Assembly: GCA_029866325.1 (NCBI GenBank)
Contig: JARWZO010000006.1
Span: forward strand, 1 to 64,000
Direction: 5' to 3'
Origin: Fluviicola sp.
GTDB lineage: Bacteria > Bacteroidota > Bacteroidia > Flavobacteriales_D > Crocinitomicaceae
Length of the DNA: 64,000 bases
This document shows, piece after piece, positions 5,829-52,799 of this stretch. The translations under genes and the position numbers were made by a program. Position 1 is the first letter of the stretch; each line of letters starts with the position of its first letter. The notes beneath the pieces are model-generated. The model was not told the DNA's origin. It saw only the letters and a program-made list of their open reading frames with translations, and ran no database searches.

Positions 5829-5856
5829 ATTAATATCTTTTCAGAACACTAATTCA

Positions 5857-8800: not shown

Positions 8801-9255
8801 TCCAGCACTTTTTGTCTAATTTCACCTGAATCATTCAGACGGAAAACCGTTCGCAATATTTCATGGCGATCAATAATCTTAGAGAAAGACCGTGTAAGTG
8901 CACCAACATCCAATTGACCACTTAACCCGAATGCTCCGTTCATGGTGTAGGCTAAATTAATGGCCGGGAATTGGCATAATATCCATAATCGTTCCTGAGA
9001 GCGGGATAATTGATAGCTTTCTTGTTCGGGAATTTTTCCGATGGATGAGAAAAACTCTTGCGAACCAACCTGTTTTTTCAAATAAGCAATAATCGCCGCT
9101 TTGTTCTCTTTGAGTAACTCGAGCAAATTGGCTGGTATTTCAGGTTCGTCTGAGCTAACCCGCAAGTTTTCTCCGTCCAAAGAAATATCAATTTGGCTAA
9201 TTCTTAGCGTACTTAAAAGATCACTTATACTCATAGATGCTTTTTTCAACTTCAA
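5857..9255 (-). CDS. NRPS module TubC_N-C-A-PCP; predicted Ser-activating
   Basis: TubC-like N-terminus; HHIISDGWS; YVIYTSGSTGNPKGC; FDVSVWE / CLHFVPS / VITSGEA / HNLYGPTEASID gives D-V-W-H-I-S-L-I-D-K (Ser type); DFFELGGHSLKAM. Confidence 0.93.
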   Translation of the reverse strand: MKLKKASMSISDLLSTLRISQIDISLDGENLRVSSDEPEIPANLLELLKENKAAIIAYLKKQVGSQEFFSSIGKIPEQESYQLSRSQERLWILCQFPAINLAYTMNGAFGLSGQLDVGALTRSFSKIIDRHEILRTVFRLNDSGEIRQKVLEVTTYEFSFPLHDIRSTLQQNESIQALFKQQVETPFDLANGPLLRADLVQTADQQYVLLFTMHHIISDGWSMELLMKELFVLYHAYVSGKDNPLPNLTIQYKDYAAWQQEQLSGIQLAEHKNYWLNCFSGELPLLDMPLLNPRPAVQTFNGKKHRKVIGNQLFQQLKKLSGDQNATLFMNLIAGVNALLFKYCNQTDIILGSPIAGRQHPDLENQIGLYLNTLCLRTRFSEEDSFIDLLAKVREVTLGAYQHQIYPFDELVNELSLKRDISRNALFDVLVVLQNTAIASGGIEKGNLVNIEIGKYPITDDEISKFDISFIFEELEDQLQLTLEYNEMLYEQPFIAQLGEHFEQLFKEVVKNPQQPIGTLNLLCSEEKKLILEDFNDTLVVFPNKNKTLVDLFEEQVQRSPDAIALKFGQLELSFEQVNQLANKFSAYLKEYHQVNPKGFIGVKLERSQWLIIVLLAVLKTGNAYVPIDPSYPQDRINYIQEDAQLGLTIDQEHVDKFLKIQDQFDAKNPASLIGADDLAYVIYTSGSTGNPKGCMLRHDGVVNRIQWMWEQYDFTSKDVIFQKTTFTFDVSVWEIFMPLCWGTKMVLCEKEDVASPDRILQLIEKNGATCLHFVPSMLTTFMSHLFEKEMSAEQMKELRLVITSGEALSAETVSNWYEHLTIPIHNLYGPTEASIDVTHFTASKNDRKIPIGKPIANTQIYILNEQLQIVPIGCVGEIYIGGLGLAKGYLNKPELTKSQFIDNPFLENERIYKTGDFGKWLSDGTVEYLGRKDHQVKIRGFRIELGEIEAAILRYKKIKASVVLAKQQTNGESNLVAYFLSNEKCSIAELRQYLKTCLPEYMIPDFLIERESFPLNPNGKLDRKALPDPEGSDILTGVEYMAPRSETESTLIAIWEEVLGVENIGVLHDFFELGGHSLKAMRLLSNTFKKFNVRLELTDLFENSTVEKMSLLVERIIWLETEVDADNEMRI

Positions 9256-9258
9256 GGA

Positions 9259-12200
9259 TTATATAATCGATTGGTATTTTTTTTCACTTTTTTTATTCAA
9301 CCAAATTGTTTCATCAATCAATTTCGCCACCGATTCGATGCTTGGGTGCTCAAAAAAATCATTCAGGCTTAATTCGATACCATACTGTTTTTGAATTCGT
9401 TTAAGAATGACCATTGCTTTTAATGAATCACCGCCCAATTCGAAAAAATCATCCTGAATTCCAATTTGGTCAATCCCAAAAAAATTAACGAATAACTCCT
9501 GAAGCGTTTTTTCACTCTCCGAAGTGGCTTCAACGAATGGTGTATTCAATGTGGGGCGCTCCATTTTAAGATTCGGAATATAGTCTTGTTCTAAACCCAG
9601 GTCGAATGCAGCCTCCATATTTTCGAAAAAAGCATCATACTCGCGTTTCGATTTCAGGAAATCTCTTGTGGAAATAATGGTCGTAGGAATTTTCATGTAC
9701 AAGGCACCAAGTAAAACACGTATTGCCTCAACATTTGTTATCCCATGAACAAGTTGATTTCTATGAATGGCATGATCGTGTGCTGAATTACTTGCCATTC
9801 CCGATTCTTTTAACGTATCCCATTCTATACTTATAATGGGATAAAAAACAGTCCCTGCTTCGGCAACCGCATCCTGAAAAAGATTTGCTCCGATATAGGC
9901 TACCTGCCCTAAGAAAGGTAAAGACGCATTTTGAGAAGAACAATTCACAAAAAAATCGAGTTGTCGGTTTCCAAGCAATCGAATTAAAACTTCCGTTCCT
10001 TTCACTTTAGGATTGAACACTGCCAAATCATCTTCCTGTTTACGCCGAAGAATTATACCGCCATAGTCGGCAACCCCAGCGGTATGAATGACACCATGTA
10101 TCGATCCGAAACGTTTTTCACCCAATAGAATTGCTTCGGATACAGCCACTTCATCTCCAATATCCATCTGGAAAAAAGCGACTTCAGCGCCTAGCTTTTC
10201 AAGTGTTTCTTTAACGGTTGCTGAGGCAGCACTTCTTCCTATCAGAATGAGTTTTGCATTGTATTCCGAAGCCAGATAAGTAGCAAAAATGTGCCCCATT
10301 CCACCAGATGCACCTGTGATGATATAACAGCCTCCTTTTCGAAGATCGGTAGTGATATCTGGCGTTGTTGTCTCTAGTTTTTCAAATGACTTAAGGTACT
10401 TGTTTTTTCCTCTCAGCGCAATTTCAGCGCAATCAGAATCGTAGTTCAACTCTTTCCACAATGAACTCATTGTGTTTTCAGAATCGTCTGAAATATCTAT
10501 TGCCCGACATTTTATGGTTGAAAACTCAAGCGGAATAGTTTTTATTGCCCCCAAATCAATTGCTTTTGAAGGATGAATAAAATCCAAATCATGTACTTTA
10601 TACCAGCCATTGGCAACCACCTCTAACTGCAATGTTTCCGATGGAAAATTCATTGAATAATGGCGGGCAAAATTCACTAGTGAATGATAAACCGATACTT
10701 CAAGCGCTTCTTTAGCAAACACCTGATTCGTAAAATCCCAAAGATGGATTGCAATTTGGGGAATTACTCCTGTGTGTTTGATTTCTTTTATTAATCGTTC
10801 AATATCTCCATCCTGTTTCGGATCTAATACATAAGAAAGAGCATCTTTTTTGTCAAAGGAATTTCCCCGATCCACTGTGATTACTTTGTTCTCGGCATCT
10901 GTTAATCGTTGAACCAGGTAAGCAGACAAAGGGGTGCCTTCTGAAAAAACAAGCACTGTTTTATCGTTGATCTCCTCCTTCTTACCTCTGTGCCAAAGCC
11001 CAGTTTTCCATGAAATTCGATAAAACCAATCGTCAATATTCGCTTGCTTTTCATTGTTGACCCCAGCTTCATTTCCATGAAGTAACTTATAAGAGTTTAC
11101 CTCAGACGGGTATTCAATTAATTCAAAAGAATAAGTTGGTAATGAGATTCTTCTTCGTGTTTCGTTTTGGTGATACATGTTCCAATCAATCACGACGCCG
11201 GCACTCCAAAGTCTCCCAATGCGATTGGTAAAGTATTTAGTATCATCTTCCTTTTCTTTGATCGTTCTTATAAGATTGATCACAGGGTAAGATGATTTAC
11301 CAAAGTGCTGTTTTACCAAACTACTCAAGGAGTGTCCAGCACCAACTTCAACAAAAACCAAGTCTTCCTCCAGGGACAATAATGTTTCAATTCCTTTTGA
11401 AAACTGAACCGTTTCCCGGAGGTGTCTTACCCAATAATCGGCAGATGTAGCCTCTGAAGCTTTGATAAAGTTGCCCGTAAGATTGGAAATAAACGGTTTC
11501 TTTAGTGCATTCAGCCTCACACTTTCAACCACTGTTCTATATGATTCAAGTATTGAATCTTGCATCGAAGAGTGAAAAGCGTGCGAGGTATGCAATTGAA
11601 CATACGGAATCGAGTTGTCCTTCAATTGTGTCGATAACAATTCTATCGCTTCCCGATCTCCCGAAAGAACCAATTGCTCAGGGCCATTGATTCCTGCCAG
11701 TGAAACACGATCATTCAAGTACTCTTTGATTTGAGAAACTGTGGCCGAAACGCTCAACATTACTCCAGGTGCCAATGAATACATTAATTCTCCCCGTTTC
11801 AAAACCAATCGAATCCCGTCTTCAAAACTGAAAACACCATCCAAACAAGCTGCTACATATTCACCGATACTATGACCAATCATGTATTGAGGGGTCACTC
11901 CGTAAGAAATCAGTAATTGAGAAAGCGAATACTCCGTCAAAAAGATCAATGCTTGAGCGTATCGTGTTTGGTTGATGGTCGAATCTGCTGATGTTTCAGA
12001 AAAAAGAATCGATTTGAAATCCTCTCCCGTTATAGAATGGATCAGCTCAAAGCCTTTGTCCATCTCTGACCGGAAAAAAAAATCCGAGTCATAAAGGCCT
12101 TTGCCCATGTTCAAATACTGCGAACCCTGGCCTGAAAACAAAAATACGACAGACTTCGTTCCCTCCTTGAACGGAGATGAATCAGTCGCTTGAGATGTGT

Positions 12201-13737
12201 CCAAAAGTGAAAGAAGTTCAGCACGATTCTCAAATACAAATGATTTGCGGTAACGGAAATGTTTGCGGCCAACATGATACGTATAGGCCATGTCGTCGAG
12301 TTGAATTTCTTCATTCGACTTCAAAAATCCTGAAAGTTTTTCCAAATAGCGTTCTAACGAAGCGTTCGTTTTTGCCGATAAAGTCACCAATTTATACTGT
12401 CTTTCTGACTTGGTGGCAACTTGTTTGGGTGCTTCTTCAAGAATGATGTGTGCATTGGTTCCACCAACACCAAACGAACTAACGCCTGCACGCAAAGGTT
12501 GTTCGTTTTCAGATTTCCAGTCACAAAGCGAAGCATTCACATGAAACGGTCCGCCCGAAAAATTAATTTCATCAGATGCAGTGTGATAATGCAGGCTTGC
12601 AGGAATCTTGCGATGTTTCAAACTCAATGTTGTCTTGATCAATCCTGCTACACCCGCCGCAATATCCAAATGGCCGATGTTTGATTTTACAGAACCGATC
12701 GCACAAGAATGGTCGACATTTCTTTTAAAAGCTATATTCAAGGCTTCAACCTCTATTGAATCACCTAGTTTTGTAGCTGTACCGTGGGTTTCGATATACG
12801 AAATAGATTCAGGTTCAACTTTGGCGAATTTCTGTGCCATTCGAATACAATCAACTTGGCCTTCAATACTTGGAGCCGTATAGCCTACCTTTCTCTTACC
12901 ATCGTTGTTTACGGCACTTCCTTTTATGACTGCATAAATATTGTCACCATCTTTGATTGCATCAGCCAATCGTTTTAGCACTACGATACCAACACCTTCT
13001 CCATCAACCGTTCCGGAAGAGGCCTGATCAAAGGGTCTACAATGACCATCTTGGGAAAAGATACTCCCAGGCTGATAAACATAACCCTTGCTTTGATAAG
13101 TTGAAAGAGCAATTCCACCTGCCAAGGCCATTTTTGTTTCTCCAAACACAAGCGCTTTACAGGCTGTATGAATGGCAACAAGTGAAGTTGAGCAAGCGGT
13201 ATTGATAGAAATTGAAGGGCCTTTTAAATCCAGTTTATACGAGATCAGACTCGTCAGATAATCCTTATCGTTGATCTTGGCAAGATAAAAATCATTGACA
13301 CTTTGCTGCACATTGGTTAGTTTGGAATAAACCTTCCAATTCAAATCATCATTGGCTCCGGCATAAACTCCAATTGGTAATTTTGTTTGATCCGGATCAT
13401 ATCCCGCATCTTCCAATGCTTCCCAGGCGCATTCATGGAAAATACGATGTACAGGGTTTAGTAAGTGCGCTTCACTTGGCGTATAATCGAAGAAATGAGA
13501 ATCAAACCGGTTTTTATGTTGTAAATCGTAAGCTATATTAACGTAATCAGGATCGGATAGAATAGCTTGAGGCATTCCGGCTTTCTGTAATTCTTCTACT
13601 GAAAGCGTGCGAGATGATTCAACTCCATTGATGAGGTTATTCCAATGACTTCTCCAATCATCAGCACCACCAACCCGACAAGCCACACCAATAATTGCAA
13701 CTTCAAAACCAGTATATGGTTGATTACTCATCTTCAT
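9259..13737 (-). CDS. Type I polyketide synthase KS-AT-KR-ACP
   Basis: KS TACSTSLVAI, ETHGTATKLGD, KSNIGHLDIAAG; AT GHSIGEYVAACLDG with HAFHS (malonyl type); KR GGCYIITGASGGMGHIFA with YIGAN; ACP DDFFELGGDSLKAM. Confidence 0.93.
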   Translation of the reverse strand: MKMSNQPYTGFEVAIIGVACRVGGADDWRSHWNNLINGVESSRTLSVEELQKAGMPQAILSDPDYVNIAYDLQHKNRFDSHFFDYTPSEAHLLNPVHRIFHECAWEALEDAGYDPDQTKLPIGVYAGANDDLNWKVYSKLTNVQQSVNDFYLAKINDKDYLTSLISYKLDLKGPSISINTACSTSLVAIHTACKALVFGETKMALAGGIALSTYQSKGYVYQPGSIFSQDGHCRPFDQASSGTVDGEGVGIVVLKRLADAIKDGDNIYAVIKGSAVNNDGKRKVGYTAPSIEGQVDCIRMAQKFAKVEPESISYIETHGTATKLGDSIEVEALNIAFKRNVDHSCAIGSVKSNIGHLDIAAGVAGLIKTTLSLKHRKIPASLHYHTASDEINFSGGPFHVNASLCDWKSENEQPLRAGVSSFGVGGTNAHIILEEAPKQVATKSERQYKLVTLSAKTNASLERYLEKLSGFLKSNEEIQLDDMAYTYHVGRKHFRYRKSFVFENRAELLSLLDTSQATDSSPFKEGTKSVVFLFSGQGSQYLNMGKGLYDSDFFFRSEMDKGFELIHSITGEDFKSILFSETSADSTINQTRYAQALIFLTEYSLSQLLISYGVTPQYMIGHSIGEYVAACLDGVFSFEDGIRLVLKRGELMYSLAPGVMLSVSATVSQIKEYLNDRVSLAGINGPEQLVLSGDREAIELLSTQLKDNSIPYVQLHTSHAFHSSMQDSILESYRTVVESVRLNALKKPFISNLTGNFIKASEATSADYWVRHLRETVQFSKGIETLLSLEEDLVFVEVGAGHSLSSLVKQHFGKSSYPVINLIRTIKEKEDDTKYFTNRIGRLWSAGVVIDWNMYHQNETRRRISLPTYSFELIEYPSEVNSYKLLHGNEAGVNNEKQANIDDWFYRISWKTGLWHRGKKEEINDKTVLVFSEGTPLSAYLVQRLTDAENKVITVDRGNSFDKKDALSYVLDPKQDGDIERLIKEIKHTGVIPQIAIHLWDFTNQVFAKEALEVSVYHSLVNFARHYSMNFPSETLQLEVVANGWYKVHDLDFIHPSKAIDLGAIKTIPLEFSTIKCRAIDISDDSENTMSSLWKELNYDSDCAEIALRGKNKYLKSFEKLETTTPDITTDLRKGGCYIITGASGGMGHIFATYLASEYNAKLILIGRSAASATVKETLEKLGAEVAFFQMDIGDEVAVSEAILLGEKRFGSIHGVIHTAGVADYGGIILRRKQEDDLAVFNPKVKGTEVLIRLLGNRQLDFFVNCSSQNASLPFLGQVAYIGANLFQDAVAEAGTVFYPIISIEWDTLKESGMASNSAHDHAIHRNQLVHGITNVEAIRVLLGALYMKIPTTIISTRDFLKSKREYDAFFENMEAAFDLGLEQDYIPNLKMERPTLNTPFVEATSESEKTLQELFVNFFGIDQIGIQDDFFELGGDSLKAMVILKRIQKQYGIELSLNDFFEHPSIESVAKLIDETIWLNKKSEKKYQSII

Positions 13738-16700
13738 CTGTGTTTAAAAGTGTAAAAGCACTTTCCATCGTGCTAAAAAGATCATTAATCGTTTCGTTCG
13801 GTTTTTCTTCTTCAGTTATGCTATCACTTCCAATGTATTCGGATAAAGCACTGATATTGGGGAGTCCGAAAGCCACCAATAGTGTAATCTCTTTTTCAAA
13901 CCCCTTATTGACCGCGTTCAGCATTTTGATAAGGGTAATGGAGTTGCCACCCAAATCAAAAAAGTTGTCTTTTACGCCAATTTTTTCCTTTGGAAAACCG
14001 AGTATTTGACTCCAAATTTTAGTTAATTCAGCTTCAACAGCATTATTAGGAGCGACATATTTTTCGACAGTCGCCGTTTCCGTTTCACCTTGCAGGAGAA
14101 GTGCCTTTTTATTGATTTTACCATTGGCTGTAAGCGGGATTTCATTCACAAGAATAACATGATTCGGAATCATATAATTCGGAAGTTTGGCAGCCAAATA
14201 TGTCCGCACGGTTGAAGCATCGAAAGCATCATCAGAAACAACAAGATATGCAATCAATTGTTGGTCATCAGATGCAGTGATTCTTACGGCAACAACAGCA
14301 TCATTAATTGCCGGATGTTGTTTCAAAATATGTTCAATCTCACCCAATTCGATGCGGTAGCCATTCACCTTGACCTGATCATCAATTCGTCCAATCAGAT
14401 CCAGCTCTCCGTTTGGAAGCCATTTTGCAATATCACCGGTTTTATATATCCTACTTTCAAATCCTGTTTCAAACGTATGGGTAACAAAACGTTCATTTGT
14501 CAATTCCGGATCATTAAAATAACCACGGGCCAGACCATTACCGCCAATATAAAGCTCTCCCGGAATGCCAATCGGGCAAAGGTTCTTGTTAGAATCAAGA
14601 ATATATACCTGAGTGTTAAGGATTGGTTTTCCAATGGTTAAATCAGCGTTTAGATCTATTGTTTTACTACACGACCAGATGGTTGTTTCCGTAGGTCCGT
14701 ACATATTGTAGAGTGTAGCATCTGTTTTAGAAGCCAATTTACCGATCAAACTTGCAGGTAATTTTTCGCCCCCGATCAGAAGGTGTTTTAATGATTTCAG
14801 CAGTAATTGAGAATTCGGATCTTCGATCAACGCACTCAAATAAGAAGGTGTAATCTGCAGCGCTGTAATATCAGGTGGGTTCGAATCGTTTTCAGTCGCT
14901 TTAACTGTAAATTGCTTTCTGAAATTATTCAATTCATTGAGTCCTTCAAAGACTGTATCATCCGGAATTCCAAAGTCAATCAAACAAGCAATCTCTGTGA
15001 CCCCAATGATATGTAATTTTTCAACCGTTTCCCGGCAACTTTCATGGGTCCCCATCAACGCAGAGGTTTCCCAATATCTGTCAAAAGCAAGTTCGAGCAA
15101 AGAATCAAGTTGTCCGGCACTCAAATCTTTCAAATCTAGTTTCGGATCGTTCGTCAGATTACTTAACAAACTTGCACTGGAACTTAAATACTCTTTGAAA
15201 GGTTCCCTAACAGTTTTTTTTACCACTTCCAAATCCGATCCGATGTATGTGTGTAGCATCAATGCGACTTTTGCTTTACTTACATCGTGTCCGTTTTCTA
15301 TTAATGCTGTTTTATAAAGCTTAATATTTTTCTCGAGCACCTCTATTTCCTGACCAAGTAGATGCGTTAGAATATTTGCACCGATTCTTCCTGCATTTAT
15401 AAATGTTTCCGGATGTCCACCTGCTGTAACACTTATTGAAAGTTCATCCTGAATCGGTTTGGGGTAGATTCGAGTTTCCTTTTCTTGTTTTGCCCCATTT
15501 AACCGAACAAGTCCTTCACCTTTCCAAAGGGCTTTGAGCTCTTCGATCTGTTGAAACATGATGCGTTGTCGTTCTACATAATTTTCGGGCATCAAAACAA
15601 AATCATCTACATGCCATCCCGATGCTATTGATAAAGCGACTCTGCCATTTGAAAGATTATCAACAACTGACCATTCTTCAGCCACACGTACTACATCATG
15701 CAATGGTAAAACCACACTTCCCGATCGAATTTCAAGTCGTTTTGTGGTGGCTGCCAACGCGGCTCCGATTACGGCAGGATTCGGAAATATCCCTCCAAAT
15801 TCGTGAAAATGACGTTCAGGAGTCCACACCGCAGTAAAATCATTGTTATCAGCAAACTCAACCGACTTTAACAATAACCCGTATTTGTTCTCACTATTAG
15901 TTGTCTGACTCGAAAAATAAAACAAGCTGAAATCCATGACAACAGGTTCACCATTCAAATTTCTATCAAAGCTTGTTAGTTGTTGTTCATTACGGATGGT
16001 AACAGCCACACCTTTAGATAAGGTCCAAAATAATTCAAGTATAGAAATATCAAAAGAGATGGAGGTAACGGCTAAAAAATGATCTTTTGGGGTTAACGGA
16101 ACAATTTCATCTAATGCATGAACAAAATTGAACAAACTACGATGTTCAATCATCACACCTTTAGGAGTTCCGGTTGACCCTGAAGTATAAATCATGTATG
16201 CCAGTTGACCGGGCAAAATCGGCGTTAAAACAGCATTCACTCCTTCGTTAAAAATCTCCGCCCGATCTTTTTCTAAACGGATATACCGAACAGGCTCATT
16301 GACGTTCATTTTGGTGAAACCAATTTCATCACAGACAACAAAAGAAGCTTTCGTGTTTTCTAAGATGAAGGCGATTCTTTCTTCCGGATAATCAGGATCA
16401 ATTGGCACATAAGCTGCTCCGGCTTTTAAGATGCCCATCAAACCTACTACCATATCAATACTTCGCCTAGTGCAAATCGGGATCAGCGTTTCCGGCTGAA
16501 CTCCTTGCTTTTTTAAATAGCAGGCAAGCCTGGTGCTTCGGTAATCCAGATCTTCGAAAGTCAGCTTTTCGCCTCTACACCTTACTGCAACAGCTTCCGG
16601 TGTTTGCAGCGTTTGATCTCTTAATAGGTCAATAATCGTTTTCTCCGGTAATGCAACAGCGGAAGGATTAAAGTCAATCATTAAGGTCTTTCGCTCGTCT

Positions 16701-18253
16701 TTAGTAAGAAAATCGGCGTCGCATAAACGAATTTCAGGATTTGCTATAATTTCCCGAAACAACTGTTCCAAATGACCTAACATTCGTCGGGCCCGATCTG
16801 TAGTATATTGATTGGTATCGTATTCCAAACTTACCTGTAAATCCCGGTCGCTTTCGGTAAACGTAAATGTCAGATCATATTTGCTAAATACGCCTTCTCC
16901 ATCCTGGTAGGGATGAATCACCAAATCATTCGGTAATTGAATCGAACCGGTGTTTGAAGTATGACCGGTATTTTGTAAAATGACACTAACATCAAACAAC
17001 GGATTTCTACTTATATCCCGTTTTAGAGGTAGATTTCCAATTAGTTCATCAAACGGATACGACTGATGTTCGTATGCAAAAAGCAGTTCTTTTTTGACCA
17101 GATCAAACAACTCGATAAAACTTGCATCTGCCTCAAACTGCGCCCTTATTGGCAAGAGATTGACATAAAATCCGATTTGCGGTTCTAAGTCTACAAGAGA
17201 TCTGCCTGCAACAGGAGTTCCGAGAATAATATCTGTCTGATTACTATATCGGAATAACAGCGCATTAACACCTGCCAAAAGCGACATAAACATCGTTCCG
17301 TTGCGTGCAAAAGCAATTTTTTTAAGCCCTTCCGAAACGGAGGAATCAATGACGATTGTCAGTATTTTGCCCGCATAATTTTTGATTGCCGGACGCATAA
17401 AATCAGTAGGCAGTTCCAAAACCGGCAGTTCCCCCCTAAAGCGGTTTAACCAATATTCTTTTGATTGAGCTAGTTTTCCGCTTTTCAATTGAGATTGTTG
17501 CCAATAGGCATAATCTTTGTACTGTATATTGAGTGGTTTCAGCGGATTTTCACCCTTCTTACAAAAGGAGGTATAAAGTGTGAATAATTCCTGGAACAAT
17601 CGTTCCATCGACCAACCATCACTAATGATATGGTGAATGACAAAGCAGAAAAAATGCTGATCCGGGGCCGTTTGAATTAACTTTATTCTTAATAAAGGAC
17701 CTTCAGACAAATCAAATGCTTGTGTGATCTGCTGGTAAATATGTTGGTGTAAAACTTCTTCACTATTTTCATCTTGAAGATTCAGATAATCTATGTCAAT
17801 TGAAAAAACCTCATCCTCCAATACATATTGAAAAATATCGTCAGAAGCATCTTGCCTGAAAACGGTTCTTAATATTTCATGCCTGCTCACTAAAACTTTA
17901 AATGATTTTTCAAGGGCTTTCAGATCCAACGTACCTTCAAACCGATAGAAAACCGGAATGTTGTATGCCAAATTCCCTTCTTCTATTCTGCTAATAATCC
18001 AAAGTCTTCGTTGGGAAGATGAAAGCTCATAACCATCTGAAACGGGAACAGGTTTTATCGTTCTTTCTTCCTGACCGGTGGTTTGCTCAAAGCTGTTTTG
18101 TTTCAAAAACTCCTCGAGCTCTGCCTTTTTCTCTCTGATTTCATTCAGTAATTCAGAATCAATTTCAGTTGTCGCTGCCATTACCTTCAGGCGACCGTCT
18201 ACAATCTCTAACAAGATATGGGCAGCGCTCACCCTTTTTAATAAGTTCAGCAT
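13724..18253 (-). CDS. NRPS module TubC_N-C-A(interrupted by luciferase-like monooxygenase)-PCP; predicted Gly-activating
   Basis: HHIISDGWS; MIYTSGSTGTPKG; FDISILE / LQITPSY / LLIGGE / NMYGPTETTIW gives D-I-L-Q-L-G-M-I-W-K (Gly type); PCP DNFFDLGGNSITL. Confidence 0.93.
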   Translation of the reverse strand: MLNLLKRVSAAHILLEIVDGRLKVMAATTEIDSELLNEIREKKAELEEFLKQNSFEQTTGQEERTIKPVPVSDGYELSSSQRRLWIISRIEEGNLAYNIPVFYRFEGTLDLKALEKSFKVLVSRHEILRTVFRQDASDDIFQYVLEDEVFSIDIDYLNLQDENSEEVLHQHIYQQITQAFDLSEGPLLRIKLIQTAPDQHFFCFVIHHIISDGWSMERLFQELFTLYTSFCKKGENPLKPLNIQYKDYAYWQQSQLKSGKLAQSKEYWLNRFRGELPVLELPTDFMRPAIKNYAGKILTIVIDSSVSEGLKKIAFARNGTMFMSLLAGVNALLFRYSNQTDIILGTPVAGRSLVDLEPQIGFYVNLLPIRAQFEADASFIELFDLVKKELLFAYEHQSYPFDELIGNLPLKRDISRNPLFDVSVILQNTGHTSNTGSIQLPNDLVIHPYQDGEGVFSKYDLTFTFTESDRDLQVSLEYDTNQYTTDRARRMLGHLEQLFREIIANPEIRLCDADFLTKDERKTLMIDFNPSAVALPEKTIIDLLRDQTLQTPEAVAVRCRGEKLTFEDLDYRSTRLACYLKKQGVQPETLIPICTRRSIDMVVGLMGILKAGAAYVPIDPDYPEERIAFILENTKASFVVCDEIGFTKMNVNEPVRYIRLEKDRAEIFNEGVNAVLTPILPGQLAYMIYTSGSTGTPKGVMIEHRSLFNFVHALDEIVPLTPKDHFLAVTSISFDISILELFWTLSKGVAVTIRNEQQLTSFDRNLNGEPVVMDFSLFYFSSQTTNSENKYGLLLKSVEFADNNDFTAVWTPERHFHEFGGIFPNPAVIGAALAATTKRLEIRSGSVVLPLHDVVRVAEEWSVVDNLSNGRVALSIASGWHVDDFVLMPENYVERQRIMFQQIEELKALWKGEGLVRLNGAKQEKETRIYPKPIQDELSISVTAGGHPETFINAGRIGANILTHLLGQEIEVLEKNIKLYKTALIENGHDVSKAKVALMLHTYIGSDLEVVKKTVREPFKEYLSSSASLLSNLTNDPKLDLKDLSAGQLDSLLELAFDRYWETSALMGTHESCRETVEKLHIIGVTEIACLIDFGIPDDTVFEGLNELNNFRKQFTVKATENDSNPPDITALQITPSYLSALIEDPNSQLLLKSLKHLLIGGEKLPASLIGKLASKTDATLYNMYGPTETTIWSCSKTIDLNADLTIGKPILNTQVYILDSNKNLCPIGIPGELYIGGNGLARGYFNDPELTNERFVTHTFETGFESRIYKTGDIAKWLPNGELDLIGRIDDQVKVNGYRIELGEIEHILKQHPAINDAVVAVRITASDDQQLIAYLVVSDDAFDASTVRTYLAAKLPNYMIPNHVILVNEIPLTANGKINKKALLLQGETETATVEKYVAPNNAVEAELTKIWSQILGFPKEKIGVKDNFFDLGGNSITLIKMLNAVNKGFEKEITLLVAFGLPNISALSEYIGSDSITEEEKPNETINDLFSTMESAFTLLNTDEDE
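14909..15940 (-). other. Luciferase-like FMN-dependent monooxygenase (MupA/Atu3671-type) domain embedded between A4 and A5 of the A domain
   Basis: Residues ~772-1115: MDFSLFYFSSQ...FADNNDFTAVWTPERHFHEFGGIFPNPAVIGAALAATTKRLEIRSGSVVLPLHDVVRVAEEWSVVDNLSNGRVALSIASGWH... A domain resumes DITALQITPSYLSAL. Confidence 0.88.
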
Positions 18254-18608: not shown

Positions 18609-20693
18609 ATGGACTATCAAAATAATACAGAACCACTTTTAGAACAAGTAGAGCAGGAATATGATAGTTATAATTTAGAAGATCATCAAACATGGGAAGT
18701 TCTTTGTCAAAACCAAATTGATTACATTCAAAAAAGTGCGTCTCAGGAATTTCTGGATGGCTTTTCAAAACTTGATCTTGATCGAACGAATATCGCAAAG
18801 ATTGAAGAGTTAAGCCGTAATTTGGAATCTGTTTCCGGCTGGACTTTGGTACCTGTAACAGGATTATTACCCAATAGGGATTTTTTCTATTTATTGATCA
18901 ACAAAAAATATCCTGTCACAATACATATTCGAAAACCTTATGAAATCAATTTCAGTGAACAACCTGATATTTTTCATGATGTTTGCGGGCATTTACCGTT
19001 ATTGACAAATGAAAAATTCACCCGTTTTCTCACAGCCTATTGTATTGTTGCGCTCAAGTATATTCACAATGAAAAGGCGCTTGATTTATTGGGGAAATTA
19101 TACTGGTATACCTATGAGACAGGGTTGATTAAAAAAGATGGGGCTTATTTCCCGTATGGAGGTGCCATTATTACTTCTTCAGAAGAAATAGAAAATTTCA
19201 ACCGTTCTGAAATACCGAAACATACGTTCGATCTTCAGCACATTTTTCGTTCGGAATTTAGCCCTTACAGTTTACAAAAAGAGTACTTTGTCATTGAATC
19301 GTTTGATGATCTTTTTAACTGTATTGACGAAATAGAACCTACGTTGATTAACTACCTGAGAATTGTCAATGATGAACTTTTGATTGACGATTATTCATTA
19401 AACGAAACAATCGGACCACAGTTTAGAGATGTCATCGGTTTCCTCAATGATATGCAATACAAGTATCCTGAAGCCATTTCTTTTGTTTCAGGCCAGCCGG
19501 ATGAAACATTTTTTCAAATAGATACACAGTTATCAAGTATTGAATATTATGTGGATTATCTTATGCGTTCAACCGGTAAATCGAGAGAAGCGGTTTTGAA
19601 TAAAATTGGCCAATACAGTAAAACCAAAGGTATTGTCAACGATATTCTTGCAAATCATCTGAGTAAGGAAGAAAACATTAAAATCAATGGTGAACAAATT
19701 TTGATTACAGTTGGCGCTCAGGAAGCATTTGCTGTTATTGTGACCACACTTTGTAATCGAGAAAACGATGAGATTCTAATTGAAGACCCAAGCTACATTG
19801 GTTTAAGTTCGTATGCTCACGTTTTTGGGTATTCTATCAATGGTGTACAAACAGATGATGAGGGAATTGAAACAGAGAAATTGGAAGACACCATTCTCGA
19901 GAGAGAAGCTTTAGGAAAAAAAGTAAAGCTGGTTTATGTTATTCCCGATTATCAAAATCCTTCGGGTTTTTCAATGTCCATACTTCGTCGTCAGAAATTA
20001 CTGGATTTGGCTAAGCAATACAACTTTTTCATCGTTGAAGACAGCGTTTATAATAGCTTTACTTACTTGCAAAAAAAGAATCCAACGCTGAAATCCTTAG
20101 ACCGGTTTAATCGTGTAATCTATGTCGGTTCTTTCTCAAAATCATTGTTCCCGGGCTTGCGAATAGGAATGATTGTTGCCAACCAACAGTTAAAAGGTGC
20201 AGATGGAAATACAATCGATCTCATTGACCAAATGGCTAAAGTCAAAGTACAACTAACCAACAATACTTCTACTATTAGTCAGGCTATTTTAGGCGGCGTT
20301 TTACTCAGCCATCAAGGCAGTCTCAACGAATGGAATCAACCCAAATTTGATAGCTATAAAAATAAACGAGATTGCATTTTAAATAACCTAGACAAACATA
20401 TTGGAAAATTTAAACATGAGTGGGCTAAAGATATTAGCTGGAACAAACCGGATGGAGGGTTTTTCATTAAAATGAATTTGCCCTTTGAGGTGGATGACAC
20501 CTCGGTGGCAGAATGTGCTTCGGGGTTCAATATTATTATTTGTCCCATGCGTTATTTTTATTTAAACGATGGTGGTGAAAAAGAAATCAGAATCACCTTT
20601 TCAAACCTTTCGATCGATAAGATTGATGAAGGTATAAAACAATTGGCCTTATACTTGAAATCCAACATTAATCACAACAATTATTCAGTATGA
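18609..20693 (+). CDS. Fusion protein: biopterin-dependent aromatic amino acid hydroxylase-like N-terminal half + PLP-dependent class I/II aminotransferase C-terminal half
   Basis: N-half: EQPDIFHDVCGHLPLL (Fe ligands HxxxxH) and YWYTYETGLI (Glu ligand). C-half: GAQEAFAVIVTTL, DPSYIGL, VIPDYQNPSGFSMS, GSFSKSLFPGLRIG (PLP Lys). Confidence 0.85.
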   Translation: MDYQNNTEPLLEQVEQEYDSYNLEDHQTWEVLCQNQIDYIQKSASQEFLDGFSKLDLDRTNIAKIEELSRNLESVSGWTLVPVTGLLPNRDFFYLLINKKYPVTIHIRKPYEINFSEQPDIFHDVCGHLPLLTNEKFTRFLTAYCIVALKYIHNEKALDLLGKLYWYTYETGLIKKDGAYFPYGGAIITSSEEIENFNRSEIPKHTFDLQHIFRSEFSPYSLQKEYFVIESFDDLFNCIDEIEPTLINYLRIVNDELLIDDYSLNETIGPQFRDVIGFLNDMQYKYPEAISFVSGQPDETFFQIDTQLSSIEYYVDYLMRSTGKSREAVLNKIGQYSKTKGIVNDILANHLSKEENIKINGEQILITVGAQEAFAVIVTTLCNRENDEILIEDPSYIGLSSYAHVFGYSINGVQTDDEGIETEKLEDTILEREALGKKVKLVYVIPDYQNPSGFSMSILRRQKLLDLAKQYNFFIVEDSVYNSFTYLQKKNPTLKSLDRFNRVIYVGSFSKSLFPGLRIGMIVANQQLKGADGNTIDLIDQMAKVKVQLTNNTSTISQAILGGVLLSHQGSLNEWNQPKFDSYKNKRDCILNNLDKHIGKFKHEWAKDISWNKPDGGFFIKMNLPFEVDDTSVAECASGFNIIICPMRYFYLNDGGEKEIRITFSNLSIDKIDEGIKQLALYLKSNINHNNYSV

Positions 20694-21526
20694 AACTTAG
20701 TGAAGATCAACTAAATGACTATAAAAAAAACGGTTTTCTTTTCATAGAGAATGTCTTCAGTGAAAAAGAAATATCGACTCTTTTAACTGAAATGGAACGC
20801 GTTATAGAAGAAGATTCTCCACGTAAGATTTTAGAAAAAAACGGACAAGTTCGTTCATTTTTTGCTCCGGAGTTGTCGAGCCCACTATTTGAAAATGTGG
20901 TGCGTCTCGACAGGTTGGTGAGCCCATCCCGGCAATTAATAGGAAGTTCTATCTATAAACACCAAACCAAACTCAATACAAAACACGCCATTGTTGGCGA
21001 TTGGTGGGATTGGCATCAGGATTATACTTATTGGAAAAAGGAAGATGGAATGCCGTCTTCGGATGTATTAACTGCAATGATTTATTTAAACGATGTAAAT
21101 GAGTTCAACGGGCCGCTTTTTGTAATTCCTGGTTCTCACACCATCGGTACGGTTGATGCAACATTTCGCGATAAACCTGAAGATAACGATGAATGGTTTG
21201 AAGAATATCAAACCAGTACTACCTATATGTCAGCACTTACTGCCGATTTAAAATACACCATTCCGGAAAACCTTCTTGCAGATTGGATTACGAAAAAGGG
21301 ATTGATTTCTATGAAAGGTAAAGCGGGATCTGTCTTGTTTTTTCATGGAAATTTATTTCATGCTTCAACCAACAACCTTTCTCCCTGGAACAGGCATACT
21401 TTTTTAATCACGTACAACAGTACCAATAATTCGCTCCCCGACACACCTAATCCAAGACCCGAATTTATTTCAAGTAGAGATTTTAGTGCGATTGAATGCA
21501 CTGAAAAAGATTTTATTCTTCCATAA
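20690..21526 (+). CDS. Phytanoyl-CoA dioxygenase (PhyH)-family Fe(II)/2-oxoglutarate oxygenase
   Basis: WDWHQDYTYW (HxD), PLFVIPGSHTIG, FFHGNLFHASTNNLSPWNRHTFLITYN (distal His and Arg). ATGA overlap with the upstream gene. Confidence 0.85.
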   Translation: MKLSEDQLNDYKKNGFLFIENVFSEKEISTLLTEMERVIEEDSPRKILEKNGQVRSFFAPELSSPLFENVVRLDRLVSPSRQLIGSSIYKHQTKLNTKHAIVGDWWDWHQDYTYWKKEDGMPSSDVLTAMIYLNDVNEFNGPLFVIPGSHTIGTVDATFRDKPEDNDEWFEEYQTSTTYMSALTADLKYTIPENLLADWITKKGLISMKGKAGSVLFFHGNLFHASTNNLSPWNRHTFLITYNSTNNSLPDTPNPRPEFISSRDFSAIECTEKDFILP

Positions 21527-21528
21527 GT

Positions 21529-21546
21529 CTTTATTTGGAAATAAAG
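21529..21546. terminator. Palindrome at convergent gene ends, possible bidirectional terminator
   Basis: CTTTATTT-GG-AAATAAAG; the PhyH stop (21524-21526) and the stop of the minus-strand gene (21531) sit at this palindrome. Confidence 0.35.
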
Positions 21547-22607
21547 CGCATTAACGATTCGAGTGGTCCTCTTTTGAAGAACCGGCTATATATTGTGCTG
21601 AAAGCAAGACAAATTGCATAAAACACTCCAACGTAAAGCATAATTTTTTCTGAAGAGATTGTTTTTCCAACAGGATAATAACCGGTGTACTGAATACCTG
21701 TTAAGAAGGATAACAAAAGCATCCCGACCGTTATATGAAAGATATACATCGAGAGTGTCATTTTGCCAAGTGAGGCCAATGATAAAATAATTTTGTTTGT
21801 TGGTAACCAATTGCCAACACTGTGACAAATACAAATTGCAATCACCCCGCAACTAGCCGTTATCAGCAAAAACGGTAAAACGATGGGATTATATTCCGTT
21901 AGCATGTATTCGTTAATCTCGGGTGAATAAAGACCGTAAGAAGCTCCCATTTTCACCGCTTTTGTGATCAGTAAAACAATGATTGCACTAATGAACAGCC
22001 ATCGCTTTTTCTTTTTATTCTTCCAATCCATACGGCCTAACCACATCCCCAGAAAAAAGAATGAAATCCAAGGAAAAAGAGAATTCCATCCGTTATAAAA
22101 AGTGCTTCTAAAAAAGCCTTCAACAGTCCAAAAATCAAGGTATTTTGACGTTGCAAAATCCCATCCTGTTCCAACCGGAATCACAAATAGACAGAGTTGG
22201 TAAATCACAATAGCACCCAGAGCAAACCAGAGGTAAACCGATTTTCTGACAAACAACAGAAAAGCAGCAACATGCATATAACCACCATAAAAATGCAAGA
22301 TATCTCCAGGCCACCAGTTATAAAAAATCAGACCTAAAGCAAAAAGAAACCAAGATCTCTTCAACACCTTTTTTCTGAGTGCTTTTTTTTCTTCCAGTGA
22401 GTTTTGAGCGGATGAAGCCAAAAAAGACAATCCCATTCCTGCAAGAATAATAAATACAGATGTGGCATTTCCGATAAACAAATGCTGAAACTTTCCTGTC
22501 CAGGAAACCGTTTCGAATGTTCCAAAACAAAACGAAAAATTTACAATCAACATTCCGAAAATGGCATACGCTCTTGCCAAATCGAAGCCACTAATACGTT
22601 CTTTCAT
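21531..22607 (-). CDS. Polytopic membrane protein, DUF418/DUF1624 (acyltransferase-3-like)-type
   Basis: Starts MKERISGFDLARAYAIFGMLIVNFSF and has multiple hydrophobic helices; typical of this family. Confidence 0.6.
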   Translation of the reverse strand: MKERISGFDLARAYAIFGMLIVNFSFCFGTFETVSWTGKFQHLFIGNATSVFIILAGMGLSFLASSAQNSLEEKKALRKKVLKRSWFLFALGLIFYNWWPGDILHFYGGYMHVAAFLLFVRKSVYLWFALGAIVIYQLCLFVIPVGTGWDFATSKYLDFWTVEGFFRSTFYNGWNSLFPWISFFFLGMWLGRMDWKNKKKKRWLFISAIIVLLITKAVKMGASYGLYSPEINEYMLTEYNPIVLPFLLITASCGVIAICICHSVGNWLPTNKIILSLASLGKMTLSMYIFHITVGMLLLSFLTGIQYTGYYPVGKTISSEKIMLYVGVFYAICLAFSTIYSRFFKRGPLESLMRFISK

Positions 22608-22707: not shown

Positions 22708-25700
22708 TTACAAATCTATTTCTATAAAGCCTGTCTTATCGATCTTCAACTTATTCTGATCGCTCATGAAGCTTACATGCTCAGCCAATACTCCAATCGT
22801 AGGATACTTGAAAACGTTTTGAATATTTAATTGGAGATCGACCATTCCCTGCAATCTGGTAATTACCTGAATCACTTTCAAGCTATCACCGCCCAGTTCA
22901 AAGAAATTATCGGTAACCCCGATTTTTTCTCTCCCCAAAACTTCTTCCCAGATGTCTACAATTTTCTCCTCTAACTCATTTCTTGGAGCAACGTATTCAT
23001 TGCTGGTGTAGGCACCAAGCATATTCACATCAGGAAGCATCTTTCTATTGATTTTACCACTTGTTGTAAGCGGTATTGCATCCAATTGAATATACCTAAC
23101 TGGCAACATGTAAACCGGTAAGATCTCTCCTAAAAACAAGCGAATTTCCGATGTATTCAACACTGTTTTTCCGGTATAATACGCCATTAGCTGTTTCTCG
23201 TTGTGCAGATCTTCTTTTACAATTACTGCAACCGATTCAATGCCCGAATAGTGCAATAATGCATTCTCGATTTCTCCAATTTCAATTCGGTAACCTCTTA
23301 TTTTTACCTGGTCGTCTTTTCTACCCACATATTCGATGTTGCCATCAGGTAACCATCGGCCTAAATCACCGGTTTTATACAACGTTGAACCTGCTTCAAA
23401 AGGATGCCCCACAAATTGTTTATCAGTCAATTCAGGATTGTTTAAATACCCTCTAGAAAGTCCAACGCCTGAGATGCAAATATCCCCGATTATTCCAATT
23501 GGGGTTAACTCCAGTGATTCACTCAAAATATACATGTGGGTATTCCAAATTGGTTTACCAATTGGAATTCGCTCGTCATCTTTTGCCGTTTTATACCAGG
23601 TAACATCAATTGTGGCTTCAGTAGGACCGTAAAGATTATGCAAAACAACATCCGTATTAGCGTACCATTTATTTACAATTTCAGCAGACAATGCCTCTCC
23701 ACTTGTAATCACTTTGTTTAATCCTCGAACTGTTTTCAAATAGTGATCATCTGCAACAACAACTGCAACAAAGGCATTGAGCATACTCGGAACAAAATGC
23801 AGGCAACTTACTTGATGCTCGGCTATCAGCGAAACAATTTTTTCAGGTATCCCGGCATCCTCTTTTGGACAAATTACCATCTGTGCACCGTAGCATAGCG
23901 GCATCAACAATTCCCAAACAGATACGTCGAAGGTATAATTGGTTTTCTGCAAGATGACATCATTCGTATTGAAATTCAACTCATTCCACATCCAATCCAA
24001 ACGATTGACAAGACTTTTATGCTCAATTAAACATCCCTTCGGATTGCCTGTAGAACCTGAAGTATAAATTACATAAGCAGAATCATTTGGACTCGTTGAA
24101 TGGATCAAATTGCTATTGGAATAGTTATTCGATGCATTGAATTTTTCAAGTTCCGCTTCATCAATTACAACTTTGCATTGGCTATCATTAACGATAAAAT
24201 CGATTCGGTTTTGTGGAAATTCGGGATCTATTGGTGTATAAGCCCCCCCCGATTTAAGAATGGCTAAAATGGTTATTACCATCCATTCACTTCGTTCCAA
24301 CTTAATACCAACAACGTCATTAGGCCCAACATTGTATTGTTCTCGCAAGTAACTCGCAAGTTGATTGGCCTTTTCATTGAGTAAGTTGTAGGAATAGAAT
24401 TTTCCACTGGCAATCAACGCCACTTTGTCATTACAATGATCAACTTGTTCCTCAAACAACTCAACTATGGTTTTGTCTGACCTAAAAGATTTTTCGGTTG
24501 CATTAAACGAAGTCAATAACTGAGTCTTTTCAGATTCGCTGATGAGGTTAATGGATGCTATTTTCTTCCGTGGTTCTGCAACCAATTCAAATGCAATGGT
24601 TTCAAAGGCAGTAGCCATTCTTTCAATTGTTTCAGCCTTAAATAGCTTCGTACAATATTCAAATTCGAAAGCCATTTTGTCACCTTCGGTGCACATGAGG
24701 TTAAAATCGTTTTTAGCTGTCGTATTTAGAAATTTTTCGATAGCAGTTGTCGATGTATTCGTTGGCCGTTCGGGTGAACTACCATCGTTAAAGAAGCTCA
24801 TGTAGGAGAACGTTACATCAAAAATGGCATTTCTACTCACCGTTCTTTCCAATTTCAAATTATCCACCAAATCATCGTATTGGTAGTCCATGTTTTCAAA
24901 AGACTCTATCGCACTTTGTTTTACTTCGTTTAAGAAATCCAACCCGGTTTTCTCATCCGACGGATAGTTTCTGATCGGAAGCGTATTGATGAACATACCT
25001 ATCATATTTTGAAGGTCTGCATGGTTTCGTCCGAGAACAAATGATCCTATAACGATATCATCTTGTCCTGAGTACTTATGAAGCATGATATAGTATACCG
25101 ACAAGAAAAACATATACATTGTTATATTGTTTTCCTGTGTAAATCCCTTAATTTGTTGATATAGATCATCGTTAAGGTTCATGTTGTAAGTGGCTCCTTC
25201 GAAACTAAGAACATCTGGTCTGGTATAATCAAGTGGTAATTCCAATACCGGAATTTCATTCTCAAATTTACTCAACCAGTATTTTTTCTGATTTTCGATG
25301 ATTCCAGATTTAAATGCTTCATTTTGCCATGCTGCAAAATCCTTGTATTGTATTGTCAATTCAGGAAGATCGGCGCCTGAATATAAATCGAATAATTCTT
25401 TTCGAATAATCTCTAAAGACATTGCATCAGCAATGATATGGTGTAAGTCAACCAGTAAGATCGATGCACCACCTGCAACCTGCAACAACTCCATTCTGAA
25501 AAGTGGTGCTGTGCTTAAATCGAATGGTCGAAGGAATCGGTTAAATTCCTTTTCAACCCGATCTTTTGTAGTGTCGGTAACAATTAGCTTCACTACAAGA
25601 TCTTCATAATTATGAATCACTTGTACCACTCCTTCTTCTGTCAATTTGAAAGATGTACGCAATGATTCATGTCGCATGATCAATTTTGAAAAAGCTTCCT

Positions 25701-28700
25701 CTAATCGTAGCACATCCATTTGATCCGAAAGTTCAATAAAGAACGGGAAATTATAGTTGGTTGACTGAAGTGCCATTTGATTCATTACAAACATGCGCTT
25801 TTGTGCTGCAGAAACAGGATAATATTCCCGTTTTTCAACTGGAACTATCTCTGAAGTTGTTTGATTTTCATCACTATTATCCAGGTATTCAGCTAATTCT
25901 TTAATAGTTGGGTAGGAGAAAAACTGATTTACCTGCAACGAAACATTTAGCTTTTTTTGAATCAGCGAAGTTACCGACATTACTTTTAAAGAATCTCCTC
26001 CCAGTTCAAAGAAATCATCATGAACCCCGATCTTATCATAACTAAAGAACGATTTCCATACTTCAGCAAGCACTTGCTCGGTTTTGGTAACGGGAGCCTC
26101 ATAGTTCACACTCAATTCAGGTCGTTCAAACGAGAACCCATCTGAACTTGATTGTTCATGATTCATTACATTGGACTCTTTCTTTGCAAGTTCTATTTGT
26201 TGCTTGAGCTCATTATTTAAGTCTCTTACCCAAATAAACACCTGTGAATAACGCTCATCCATCAATCGGGCAAAAATCTCCTTACCTTCTTCGTCGGAAA
26301 TACCTTCAATTTTACCTTGAGCAAGAATTTGAGCTTCATTGTCCATGCTATACGCACGTACTCCTCCTTTTTTTGTTCTTACCGCTCTTTCAGGAATCCG
26401 CATCAATGTAAATTTTTCGATATCCACCAATACGGTACCATCTTCTCCCAAAACGGAGATGTCGTACCATACTTCACTTTCTTCAAAATTATTGTTTGGA
26501 TACGATCGGATGTAACTGTATACCTTGCCCGGGAACTCGCCCAATATCGTCAGTTTTTTGTACGCAAATGGCAAAAATGGTTCATCATCTTTCTTTCGGG
26601 GATCATCGTATTGCGTACACATGTCAAAAATGGCAGGGTGTAATTTGTAGTTTAGCAAATCAGACAAAAATTCATCCTTCAACGCAATTTCAGTTAACTG
26701 AAAATCTTTCCCGCAAAGAACCGATTTTCTATTTTCCCATCTTGGACCATAGAGCGAATTGTCGTAAAGAATGATATTATTTTGTGCAACCTTTGTCAAC
26801 TCGTCGTTACCCATTTGTCTAATTTCATCCAAATTCATTTGGCGCTTTTGGGTATCCTTTGCAATCAGCTCTACTTCTACTTCAATATGTGTAATCCATT
26901 CATAACTTTGAGAACGATCACGACTTCTAATCAGCGTTTTCAAGCGCCCCTTTTCGCGTTTAATGAGTGTTTGAACCTCTCTGTCTTTGCCATCCTCAGC
27001 AATCATTGGCATTTTGAATACCAGGTTATGGAAGGCCATCTGATTGCTCTTTTCAAGAAGTTCAACCGCAGAACGAATCAATTCAATATACCCTGTACCA
27101 GGCATTACAGCATTTCCTTCATAAATTCTATGCTCATTTAGGAACCAGCTCTTTTCAGGATTAAAATAAGAGAGAAATGCTATTTCGTCATTGGTAATGT
27201 CTACTCTTTTCTTATAGATCGGATGTTCATAAATTCGACTTTCTTTTACTTCGAATCGGTTGTAGTCGTATTGGTTCAACGTAGCGTTTACAGCCAAACC
27301 TGAATCTTGCCAAACATTCCAGTTGATGGCAATTGTATTGAAGCCGTTGGCGGTATTATCGTGCGTAAATGCATCTAAAAAATTGTTTCCGGCAATGTAT
27401 CCCACTTGGCCTGGACTGCTTAGCACCGAGTTGATCGATGAACAAACAATCATAAAAGAGGCGTCTCCAAAGTGTTTCTTTAGCAAAATAGCACCTTTAA
27501 TTTTGGAAGCGAAAATTTTATCTGTAAGCTCTTTGTTGGTAAACTGAATTACTTTTCCATCAGGAACACCAGCAGAATGGATTATACCATCAACCTTACC
27601 GTATGTAGCATGTATTTTATCAGACAATTCTTTCATGGCCTGATCATCTGAAACATCTGCACGCATATAGATTATTTCGGTGCCCGCATCTTCAAGCGCG
27701 GTTAATCGTGTAAGTGTTTTACGGAAAATATCATACTCAGGCAAACCTTCAATTTCATTCGCCCACGTATCTTTGGAAGGGAAATGAGAACGGCCAACCA
27801 AAATCAATTTCGCTTTTGCACCTTTTGAAATGGTTTCAGCCAACGCTAGTCCAATACCTCCTGTTCCTCCGGTGATTACATATATTCCATCATCTTTAAA
27901 TCGTTGAATGCTATTGGTGCTTTCTTCAATATGAACTGGTTCGAATGTCCGAATCCAGCGCTGACTTTTGCGAAAAGAGATGATTCTTTCGGTTGATTCA
28001 CTAAGCAATTCATTAAAAATATCAGTTGCAATAAGAGTTGCTTCCGCTTTGGTAGAATAGTATTCAATATCAATATTCTGGGTATATACATTCGGATATT
28101 CATGAGGAATAACATATATAGGACCAGTTCCAATAGCACTTTTGGTATTAACCTTTTCACCAGCAAGTACATTGAATAAGCTACTGGTAATTGATTTTAA
28201 AATTACTTTGCCAATGATGCTAGTATCACCTATCGATTTAGCAATATTGATTAGACCATAAAAACACAAATCGTGTGCCTCGTCAAAACTTTTGACTGTT
28301 AATGGTTCCGAACTGTAGGCAGAGATTCCCCATAAATAAACAATCGATAATACAGAATCTTCCCCTTTGTAAATCGCTTCGAAGAGTTGGTTGAAATCTT
28401 CATTATTCAACGGATTAACCTCAAATGAATTTTCAGATTCTTTCTTAAACGATGTTCCCGGAATAACTTTAATCACGGGCCATCCATGTTCAATATATTT
28501 TTGCTCTAATGCTTCGCCAATGCCTGAATTTTCTGTGAACATGACCAAAGTAGGCGGAGTTTCGAATACTGTGCGCGATTTATGCGACAATGAACTGCTT
28601 TTCCACGAGGGAAGATAAAACCAATCTGATAGTTCTTTATCCGGTTGGTTGTTCATGTTTACATTCATCCCAGCTCCAAAATCGTATGGATCTACCTCAG

Positions 28701-52076: not shown

Positions 52077-52799
52077 TTAAAGTACGGCTTCTTTTTGCTT
52101 TTTCAATTCACGGTAACTTCTCAAGACACCATCGTAGTGGTCATTAAAACGATCACATGTGTCATGAATCGCCTGAATAGCTTCATCTTGCATTTGTTTC
52201 GTGGTGCAAACATCAGCAACGCAATTTAATCCGTCTTTTACGTGGTGAACATCTTCCTCGGCATGAACTTTGAAGAAAATCATATCATCTACACTAATTC
52301 CAAAACCGTTTGCGATTGCCTCACGACGCATAGCCCCGGCTCTATCTTCAAGATTTTGACCTTCACTGGCAATCATCACAGCGGCACAAGCCCGGTGGAA
52401 TTGAGTCGGATCTTCAATAAGTCGGAAACGGAAATCAATTAACTCTTTAGTCTCAGGATTAACTTCAACCGAATTAAGTTCCTCCAATGAAATTCCTAAC
52501 GCTCCTGTAAAACGATGCAATAGCTCCAGATGGCCATCTGTTTTACTCATAGCACCGGTTTCTTCTTCGAATACGTTGTAAGCAAATTTCTTTCTTGAGT
52601 CAGCCAGAGGACATCTGTAATATAAACCACCTACATAAATTGCGAAAACTTTTGTAAGCTGATATCCTTGTTTTACCATGATGCGCAAAAGATCAGGATC
52701 TTTTTCTTCAAAAAGAGCATTTACAATTGGATGATCTTCTTTAATTCTTTGGTGTAAATTACTTTCTAATAGGTCGTAAAAAGCCTGTCTTTCTAACAT
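52077..52799 (-). CDS. Heme-oxygenase-like diiron oxidase/oxygenase (HDO; PqqC/TenA fold)
   Basis: All-helical 240-aa protein; ligand-like motifs FEEETGAMSKTDGHLELLHRF, MIASEGQ, FFKVHAEEDVHHVKDG typical of HDO/iron-containing redox enzymes. Confidence 0.75.
   Translation of the reverse strand: MLERQAFYDLLESNLHQRIKEDHPIVNALFEEKDPDLLRIMVKQGYQLTKVFAIYVGGLYYRCPLADSRKKFAYNVFEEETGAMSKTDGHLELLHRFTGALGISLEELNSVEVNPETKELIDFRFRLIEDPTQFHRACAAVMIASEGQNLEDRAGAMRREAIANGFGISVDDMIFFKVHAEEDVHHVKDGLNCVADVCTTKQMQDEAIQAIHDTCDRFNDHYDGVLRSYRELKKQKEAVL

Follow-up and report, generated by a model that had tools for sequence, protein, structure and literature searches.

The closest described precursor route is the 4-hydroxyphenylglycine pathway of actinobacterial nonribosomal peptide synthetases (NRPSs), which comprises HmaS, Hmo, and HpgT. 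The aminotransferase HpgT uses tyrosine as amino donor and is known in a fused form from enduracidin (HpgT/HmaO) (PMC9321520), and it also aminates 3,5-dihydroxyphenylglyoxylate (PMC11727664). Pterin-dependent aromatic amino acid hydroxylases (AAAHs) that act on phenylalanine include the bacterial phenylalanine 4-hydroxylases (PhhA and C. violaceum PheH, 1LTU) and the NRPS-linked PacX of the pacidamycin group. PacX is a phenylalanine meta-hydroxylase (3-hydroxylase) that carries Cys187 for Phe and Thr202 for Gly; its C187A variant is still fully meta-selective, and its T202A variant is two-thirds meta (PMC7027792). Here we analyzed a 64,000-nucleotide stretch of Fluviicola sp. DNA (hereafter the window), in which an AAAH and an aminotransferase are joined in a single gene within an NRPS/PKS cluster.

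The fused gene (18609-20693, + strand) is an uninterrupted ATG-to-stop reading frame of 694 aa. It matches the Pfam domains Biopterin_H (PF00351; residues 20-241, E 6e-33) and Aminotran_1_2 (residues 346-678, E 1.3e-30), both far beyond chance level, which confirms the original prediction of a continuous frame encoding a hydroxylase followed by a fold-type-I aminotransferase. We looked for a frameshift or stop that would split the frame into two genes and found none. A search for the same domain architecture returned seven further full-length fusions, all within NRPS loci of other Bacteroidota, which rule out a frameshift artefact. Six of these (L007-L011 and L015) came from a homologue scan of 84,980 species with one genome per species, and the seventh (L031) was met at a second HmaS place in one of the same genomes (G399). 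The relatives span 693-696 aa and share 54-61% identity with the window's protein. The AAAH-aminotransferase fusion is a genuine and conserved architecture. The window's genome contains it once, alongside a separate AAAH on contig C13, and 13 other genomes of the same genus gave no match at E 1e-50. The branching order of the window's gene, L007, and the remaining fusions is not resolved by the tree. Open-access literature searches returned no report of an AAAH-aminotransferase fusion and none of 3-hydroxyphenylglycine in NRPS products, neither of which is proof of absence. Two carriers, Chitinophaga eiseniae DSM 22224 and Pedobacter steynii DSM 19110, are held in culture collections, so the product can be sought. 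For C. eiseniae, the fused locus coincides with the sbnAB genes, which are mentioned only as part of an NRPS-type cluster other than that of chitinopeptin (PMC9248904), and chitinopeptin is thereby ruled out as the product.

The AAAH domain (residues 20-241; 18666-19331, + strand) was aligned to 1ltu and 20 other AAAHs. H123, H128, and E170 align with H138, H143, and E184 of C. violaceum PheH, forming the 2-His-1-Glu iron site of pterin-dependent AAAHs. Loss of the pterin-binding residues was looked for as well; L101, F107, and Y179 keep the positions that we take to form the pterin pocket. The substrate residues R123, P134, and W180 (C. violaceum numbering) are likewise conserved, so that fold, iron ligands, substrate residues, and pterin-pocket positions are all shared with the bacterial 4-hydroxylases. 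The domain nevertheless differs from these enzymes in being fused, in its phylogenetic position, and in its pocket. Sixteen NRPS-linked AAAHs (8 fused and 8 stand-alone) form one clade with 100/100 support on a long stem, in which F185 is replaced by Met (Thr in the window), G200 by Ala, and S203 by Thr (C. violaceum numbering); every other AAAH compared retains Phe, Gly, and Ser, C. violaceum PheH and the copy in the window's own genome included. In the window's protein, these changes place T171 directly after the iron-ligand Glu, where Phe is usual, and A186 at the usual Gly of the YGAG motif, with Met and Ala in the 15 relatives. Both PacX positions are thus altered in all 16 NRPS-linked AAAHs, although they hold Met or Thr plus Ala rather than the Cys plus Thr of PacX, and the clade members differ further from PacX in being fused to an aminotransferase or located beside CmlA. 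Scores against the NCBIfam phenylalanine 4-monooxygenase models (TIGR01267 and NF008877) fall below the curated cut-offs, at 206.1 of 264.75 and 225.4 of 247 bits. The pocket changes suggest that the AAAH half is probably meta-selective on phenylalanine and would yield m-tyrosine. The product may also be a building block in itself, as suggested by the stand-alone clade members in NRPS loci (L012-L014 and L016-L020), of which seven out of eight lie near a gene for a CmlA-type beta-hydroxylase.

The aminotransferase half (residues ~266-694; 19404-20690, + strand) has an intact fold-type-I PLP site: N450, D478, Y481, the PLP lysine K511, R518, and R661 are invariant across the eight fusions. Although none of its PDB matches is named HpgT, the gene context in relatives argues strongly for an HpgT-like enzyme. 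In six relatives (L008-L011, L015, and L031), the gene after the fused one is HPPD/HmaS-like, and a gene for an FAD-oxidase-like protein lies just upstream (L008-L011 and L015) or downstream (L031). The identity of the two partners was assigned by Pfam and NCBIfam in L008 and by likeness of sequence, length, and place in the other loci. Stand-alone aminotransferases that are 46-48% identical adjoin an HmaS-type gene in G245 and G506, and homologues on Streptomyces plasmids lie in clusters with 'hppD'/HmaS genes, accompanied by an FAD-linked oxidase in S. finlayi and by an alpha-hydroxy acid oxidase and a prephenate dehydrogenase in S. angustmyceticus. Some of these plasmid homologues adjoin a type III PKS, an arrangement also seen in dihydroxyphenylglycine pathways. 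The linkage of HpgT to HmaS and a hydroxymandelate oxidase is found in the six fused relatives and in stand-alone homologues, and it is absent in the window and L007. Compared with the actinobacterial pathway, the relatives have an AAAH as fusion partner, a GlcD-type FAD oxidase instead of Hmo, and an altered HmaS pocket. The proposal that one protein hydroxylates and transaminates an aromatic amino acid is well supported by the two domains and their intact catalytic residues; the original prediction had missed the HpgT-like character of the aminotransferase half, the PacX-like and probably meta-directing pocket of the AAAH half, and the HmaS and FAD-oxidase partners in relatives.

We examined the HmaS-type proteins for changes in their own pocket. 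Their iron ligands are retained, and all carry Ile where human HPPD has Phe364, a position that is still Phe in the HPPD of the window's own genome; the matching F337I change in Streptomyces HPPD leads to some hydroxymandelate, and human HPPD has been modelled with Gln251 and Gln265 binding the 4-hydroxyl (PMC3739788). This Gln pair is replaced by Lys and His in all six HmaS proteins of fused loci, whereas HmaS proteins from clusters without an AAAH keep Gln265 in five out of five cases and Gln251 in four out of five. Proteins at least 40% identical to the HmaS of L008 occur in the five genomes that carry both fused genes and HmaS (G396, G397, G398, G399, and G403) and in G245. None was found in the window's genome (G000), the L007 genome (G395), or the eight genomes with stand-alone AAAHs, which have only HPPD-like proteins at 30-34%.

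The adenylation (A) domains follow the same pattern. To read their codes, we aligned them to a GrsA fragment and took the residues at the GrsA positions. All five fused-plus-HmaS genomes contain DIFDFGTIF or DIFDFGTVF (partly read in G403). G398 and G399 (contig C3) have it in one cluster with the fused gene. The fused loci of G396, G397, and G403 are close to contig ends, and for this reason the DIFDFGTIF domain of these genomes is on a different contig. DIFDFGT[IV]F is absent among the codes read in G000, G395, and the stand-alone-AAAH genomes, where a subset of A domains was read, so its exclusivity is provisional. The published codes for 4-hydroxyphenylglycine and dihydroxyphenylglycine are DIFHLGLLC and DPYHGGTLC, respectively. 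G245, which has HmaS and the aminotransferase without an AAAH, has DIFHFGLIF, close to the 4-hydroxyphenylglycine code, and the Thr at position 7 of the fused genomes' code is shared with the dihydroxyphenylglycine code. Three pockets (AAAH, HmaS, and A domain) thus shift jointly where the AAAH is present, and therefore the simplest reading is the formation of 3-hydroxyphenylglycine from phenylalanine via m-tyrosine, with the meta position inferred from these co-varying pockets.

Reading the directly observed architecture, catalytic residues, gene partners, and co-varying pocket residues together, we propose the following pathway. With Fe(II), O2, and tetrahydropterin, the AAAH half would hydroxylate L-phenylalanine, most likely at the meta position, to give m-tyrosine, and the HpgT-like half would swap amino groups between m-tyrosine and an aromatic 2-oxo acid. 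In the relatives, m-tyrosine would become 3-hydroxyphenylpyruvate, which the HmaS-type dioxygenase would convert to 3-hydroxymandelate and the GlcD-type FAD oxidase to 3-hydroxyphenylglyoxylate. The same aminotransferase, with m-tyrosine as donor, would then form 3-hydroxyphenylglycine and close the cycle, and the DIFDFGTIF A domains would load the product. Overall, a bifunctional protein that supplies such a precursor to an NRPS/PKS cluster, with a PhyH variant of the route in the window, is a reading to which we give an even chance. If true, it would add, for the products of a little-explored phylum, a precursor pathway as well as an A-domain code that can be read, and it would provide a testable link between three enzyme pockets and one ring position.

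The most serious competitor, which we nevertheless consider unlikely, is that the AAAH is a conventional para-hydroxylase supplying extra tyrosine to the transaminase; the relatives would then make 4-hydroxyphenylglycine, and DIFDFGTIF would be a lineage variant of the corresponding code. The conserved W180, P134, and R123 fit such an enzyme, as does the fact that phenylalanine 4-monooxygenase models are the top NCBIfam matches, and HpgT is known to take p-tyrosine as donor (PMC9321520). However, these matches stay under the cut-offs, both PacX positions have changed throughout the clade, the 4-hydroxyl-binding pair of HmaS is lost only where the AAAH is fused, and DIFDFGTIF differs from the A code of G245. 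Moreover, clusters without an AAAH run the pathway from cellular tyrosine.

The meta-hydroxylation route drawn for the relatives does not apply directly to the window, because HmaS, the oxidase, and the DIFDFGTIF domain are all absent there. When we searched the window's genome assembly for an HmaS-type gene, the sole candidate was a housekeeping HPPD, which retains Phe at position F364, beside a homogentisate-dioxygenase-like gene, so that the hydroxyphenylglycine pathway is incomplete, and the only full GlcD-like gene lies on contig C23, outside the cluster. Instead, the fused gene overlaps by ATGA with a gene for a PhyH-family Fe(II)/2-oxoglutarate dioxygenase (20690-21526, + strand; PF05721, E 3e-36), and L007 has a 61% PhyH homologue in the same place. 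The nearest solved relatives of this PhyH include the leucine hydroxylase and the ectoine hydroxylase EctD, so that its substrate is plausibly a free amino acid or a closely related compound; unlike these GriE/EctD-type enzymes (leucine 5-hydroxylase and ectoine hydroxylase), it is coupled to an AAAH-aminotransferase gene. It would probably hydroxylate m-tyrosine or its oxo acid once more, for example at the beta carbon, before loading. Because HmaS is absent in the window and L007 and PhyH adjoins the fused gene instead, their product is expected to differ from that of the relatives. We therefore propose, at slightly less than even confidence, that the fused family is a Bacteroidota route from phenylalanine to meta-hydroxylated NRPS units, in which the relatives make 3-hydroxyphenylglycine and the window represents a second branch, with PhyH replacing HmaS and the oxidase to give another m-tyrosine-derived unit.

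The surrounding cluster bears on where such a unit could be used. Downstream of PhyH lie a DUF418/HGSNAT-like membrane protein (21531-22607, - strand), which has a 49% homologue in the L007 cluster, and, identified by Pfam and A-domain codes, NRPS and NRPS/PKS genes (22708-41686, - strand; 31319-41686 and 22708-31329). Further NRPS and PKS genes occupy 1-18253 (- strand), the first of which is truncated where the contig ends at window position 1. A CmlA-type diiron beta-hydroxylase (41717-43339, - strand; PF18456, E 3e-92) has homologues near most of the stand-alone clade AAAHs. The order of the cluster is A(Gly), A(DAWSLGNVVK), A(Ser) carrying an FkbM methyltransferase, PKS and A(Ser), an A domain interrupted by a luciferase-like insert, PKS, A(Ser), and A(Thr) with a methyltransferase. 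The FkbM domain lies within the Ser-coding module (residues 3049-3238 of the 31319-41686 protein), and the module at 13724-18253 contains the A domain with the inserted luciferase-like monooxygenase (PF00296), the readable part of whose code is Gly-like. Among the readable codes (Gly, the unassigned DAWSLGNVVK, three Ser, Thr, and Gly-like), none is clearly aromatic, as had been noted originally. The cluster breaks at window position 1 (contig C16), and contigs C10 and C18 apparently carry its continuation. C10 (L029) holds an NRPS fragment that is incomplete at either end and has a Val-like code; C18 (L030) starts inside a condensation domain and has a DAKNIGASNK code, followed by a thioesterase that ends the NRPS. 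The C16-C10-C18 assembly gaps have cost the cluster about two A domains, and the product may feed such missing modules, as had been suggested. The suggested starter role is unsupported, since a condensation domain stands at the start of the first NRPS gene (C16:40367-41647).

These gaps also allow for the improbable case that the window makes 3-hydroxyphenylglycine like its relatives, with HmaS, the oxidase, and a DIFDFGTIF module hidden in the missing sequence and PhyH acting as an unrelated tailoring enzyme. A 44% PhyH homologue on a G399 contig (C50) that also carries DIFDFGTIF domains would fit this case. However, NRPS reading frames flank the gaps on both sides, so that module-sized inserts suffice, and the independent genome of L007 is arranged alike, with PhyH adjoining the fused gene and no HmaS anywhere.

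Still less probable is a reversed order of steps, in which the aminotransferase half deaminates phenylalanine, HmaS and the oxidase produce phenylglyoxylate, the aminotransferase forms phenylglycine, and the AAAH hydroxylates it last. An HmaS without the 4-hydroxyl-binding Gln pair could accept phenylpyruvate, and an engineered HmaS-Hmo-HpgT route converts phenylpyruvate to phenylglycine (PMC7214760). Against this, eight clade AAAHs with the same pocket stand alone and must use an ordinary substrate such as phenylalanine, because their genomes lack an HmaS-type gene, and the window and L007 retain the AAAH without HmaS. Finally, the chance that a sequencing error joined two genes, or that a MocR-type regulator was taken for an enzyme, is negligible: MocR-type models are among the top NCBIfam matches of the aminotransferase half, but they fall far short of the cut-offs, the protein has only the AAAH and aminotransferase Pfam domains and no N-terminal GntR winged helix, and the catalytic residues of both halves are invariant in a fusion found seven more times.

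Several other genes in and around these loci deserve mention. In the window, a nicotianamine-synthase-like protein with a C-terminal GNAT region (50590-51960) adjoins a CADD/haem-oxygenase-like iron enzyme (52077-52799), possibly another unusual precursor pair. A penicillin-acylase-family protein (43769-46192; E 3e-185), encoded between the NRPS genes and a phosphopantetheinyl transferase, could strip the peptide of an N-terminal acyl group. On S. angustmyceticus plasmid p1 (L089), a PhyH gene joins the hppD/HmaS-like, alpha-hydroxy acid oxidase, HpgT-like aminotransferase, and prephenate dehydrogenase genes; this PhyH has no BLAST match to that of the window. An NRPS locus on Vibrio europaeus plasmid pVeu-CECT8426 (L044) encodes an aminotransferase 40% identical to the window's aminotransferase half. 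Its neighbours are TauD, a PhyH not close to that of the window, a short VOC protein with weak similarity to HPPD, and an Ldh-type oxidoreductase; together they may form another phenylglycine-like route.
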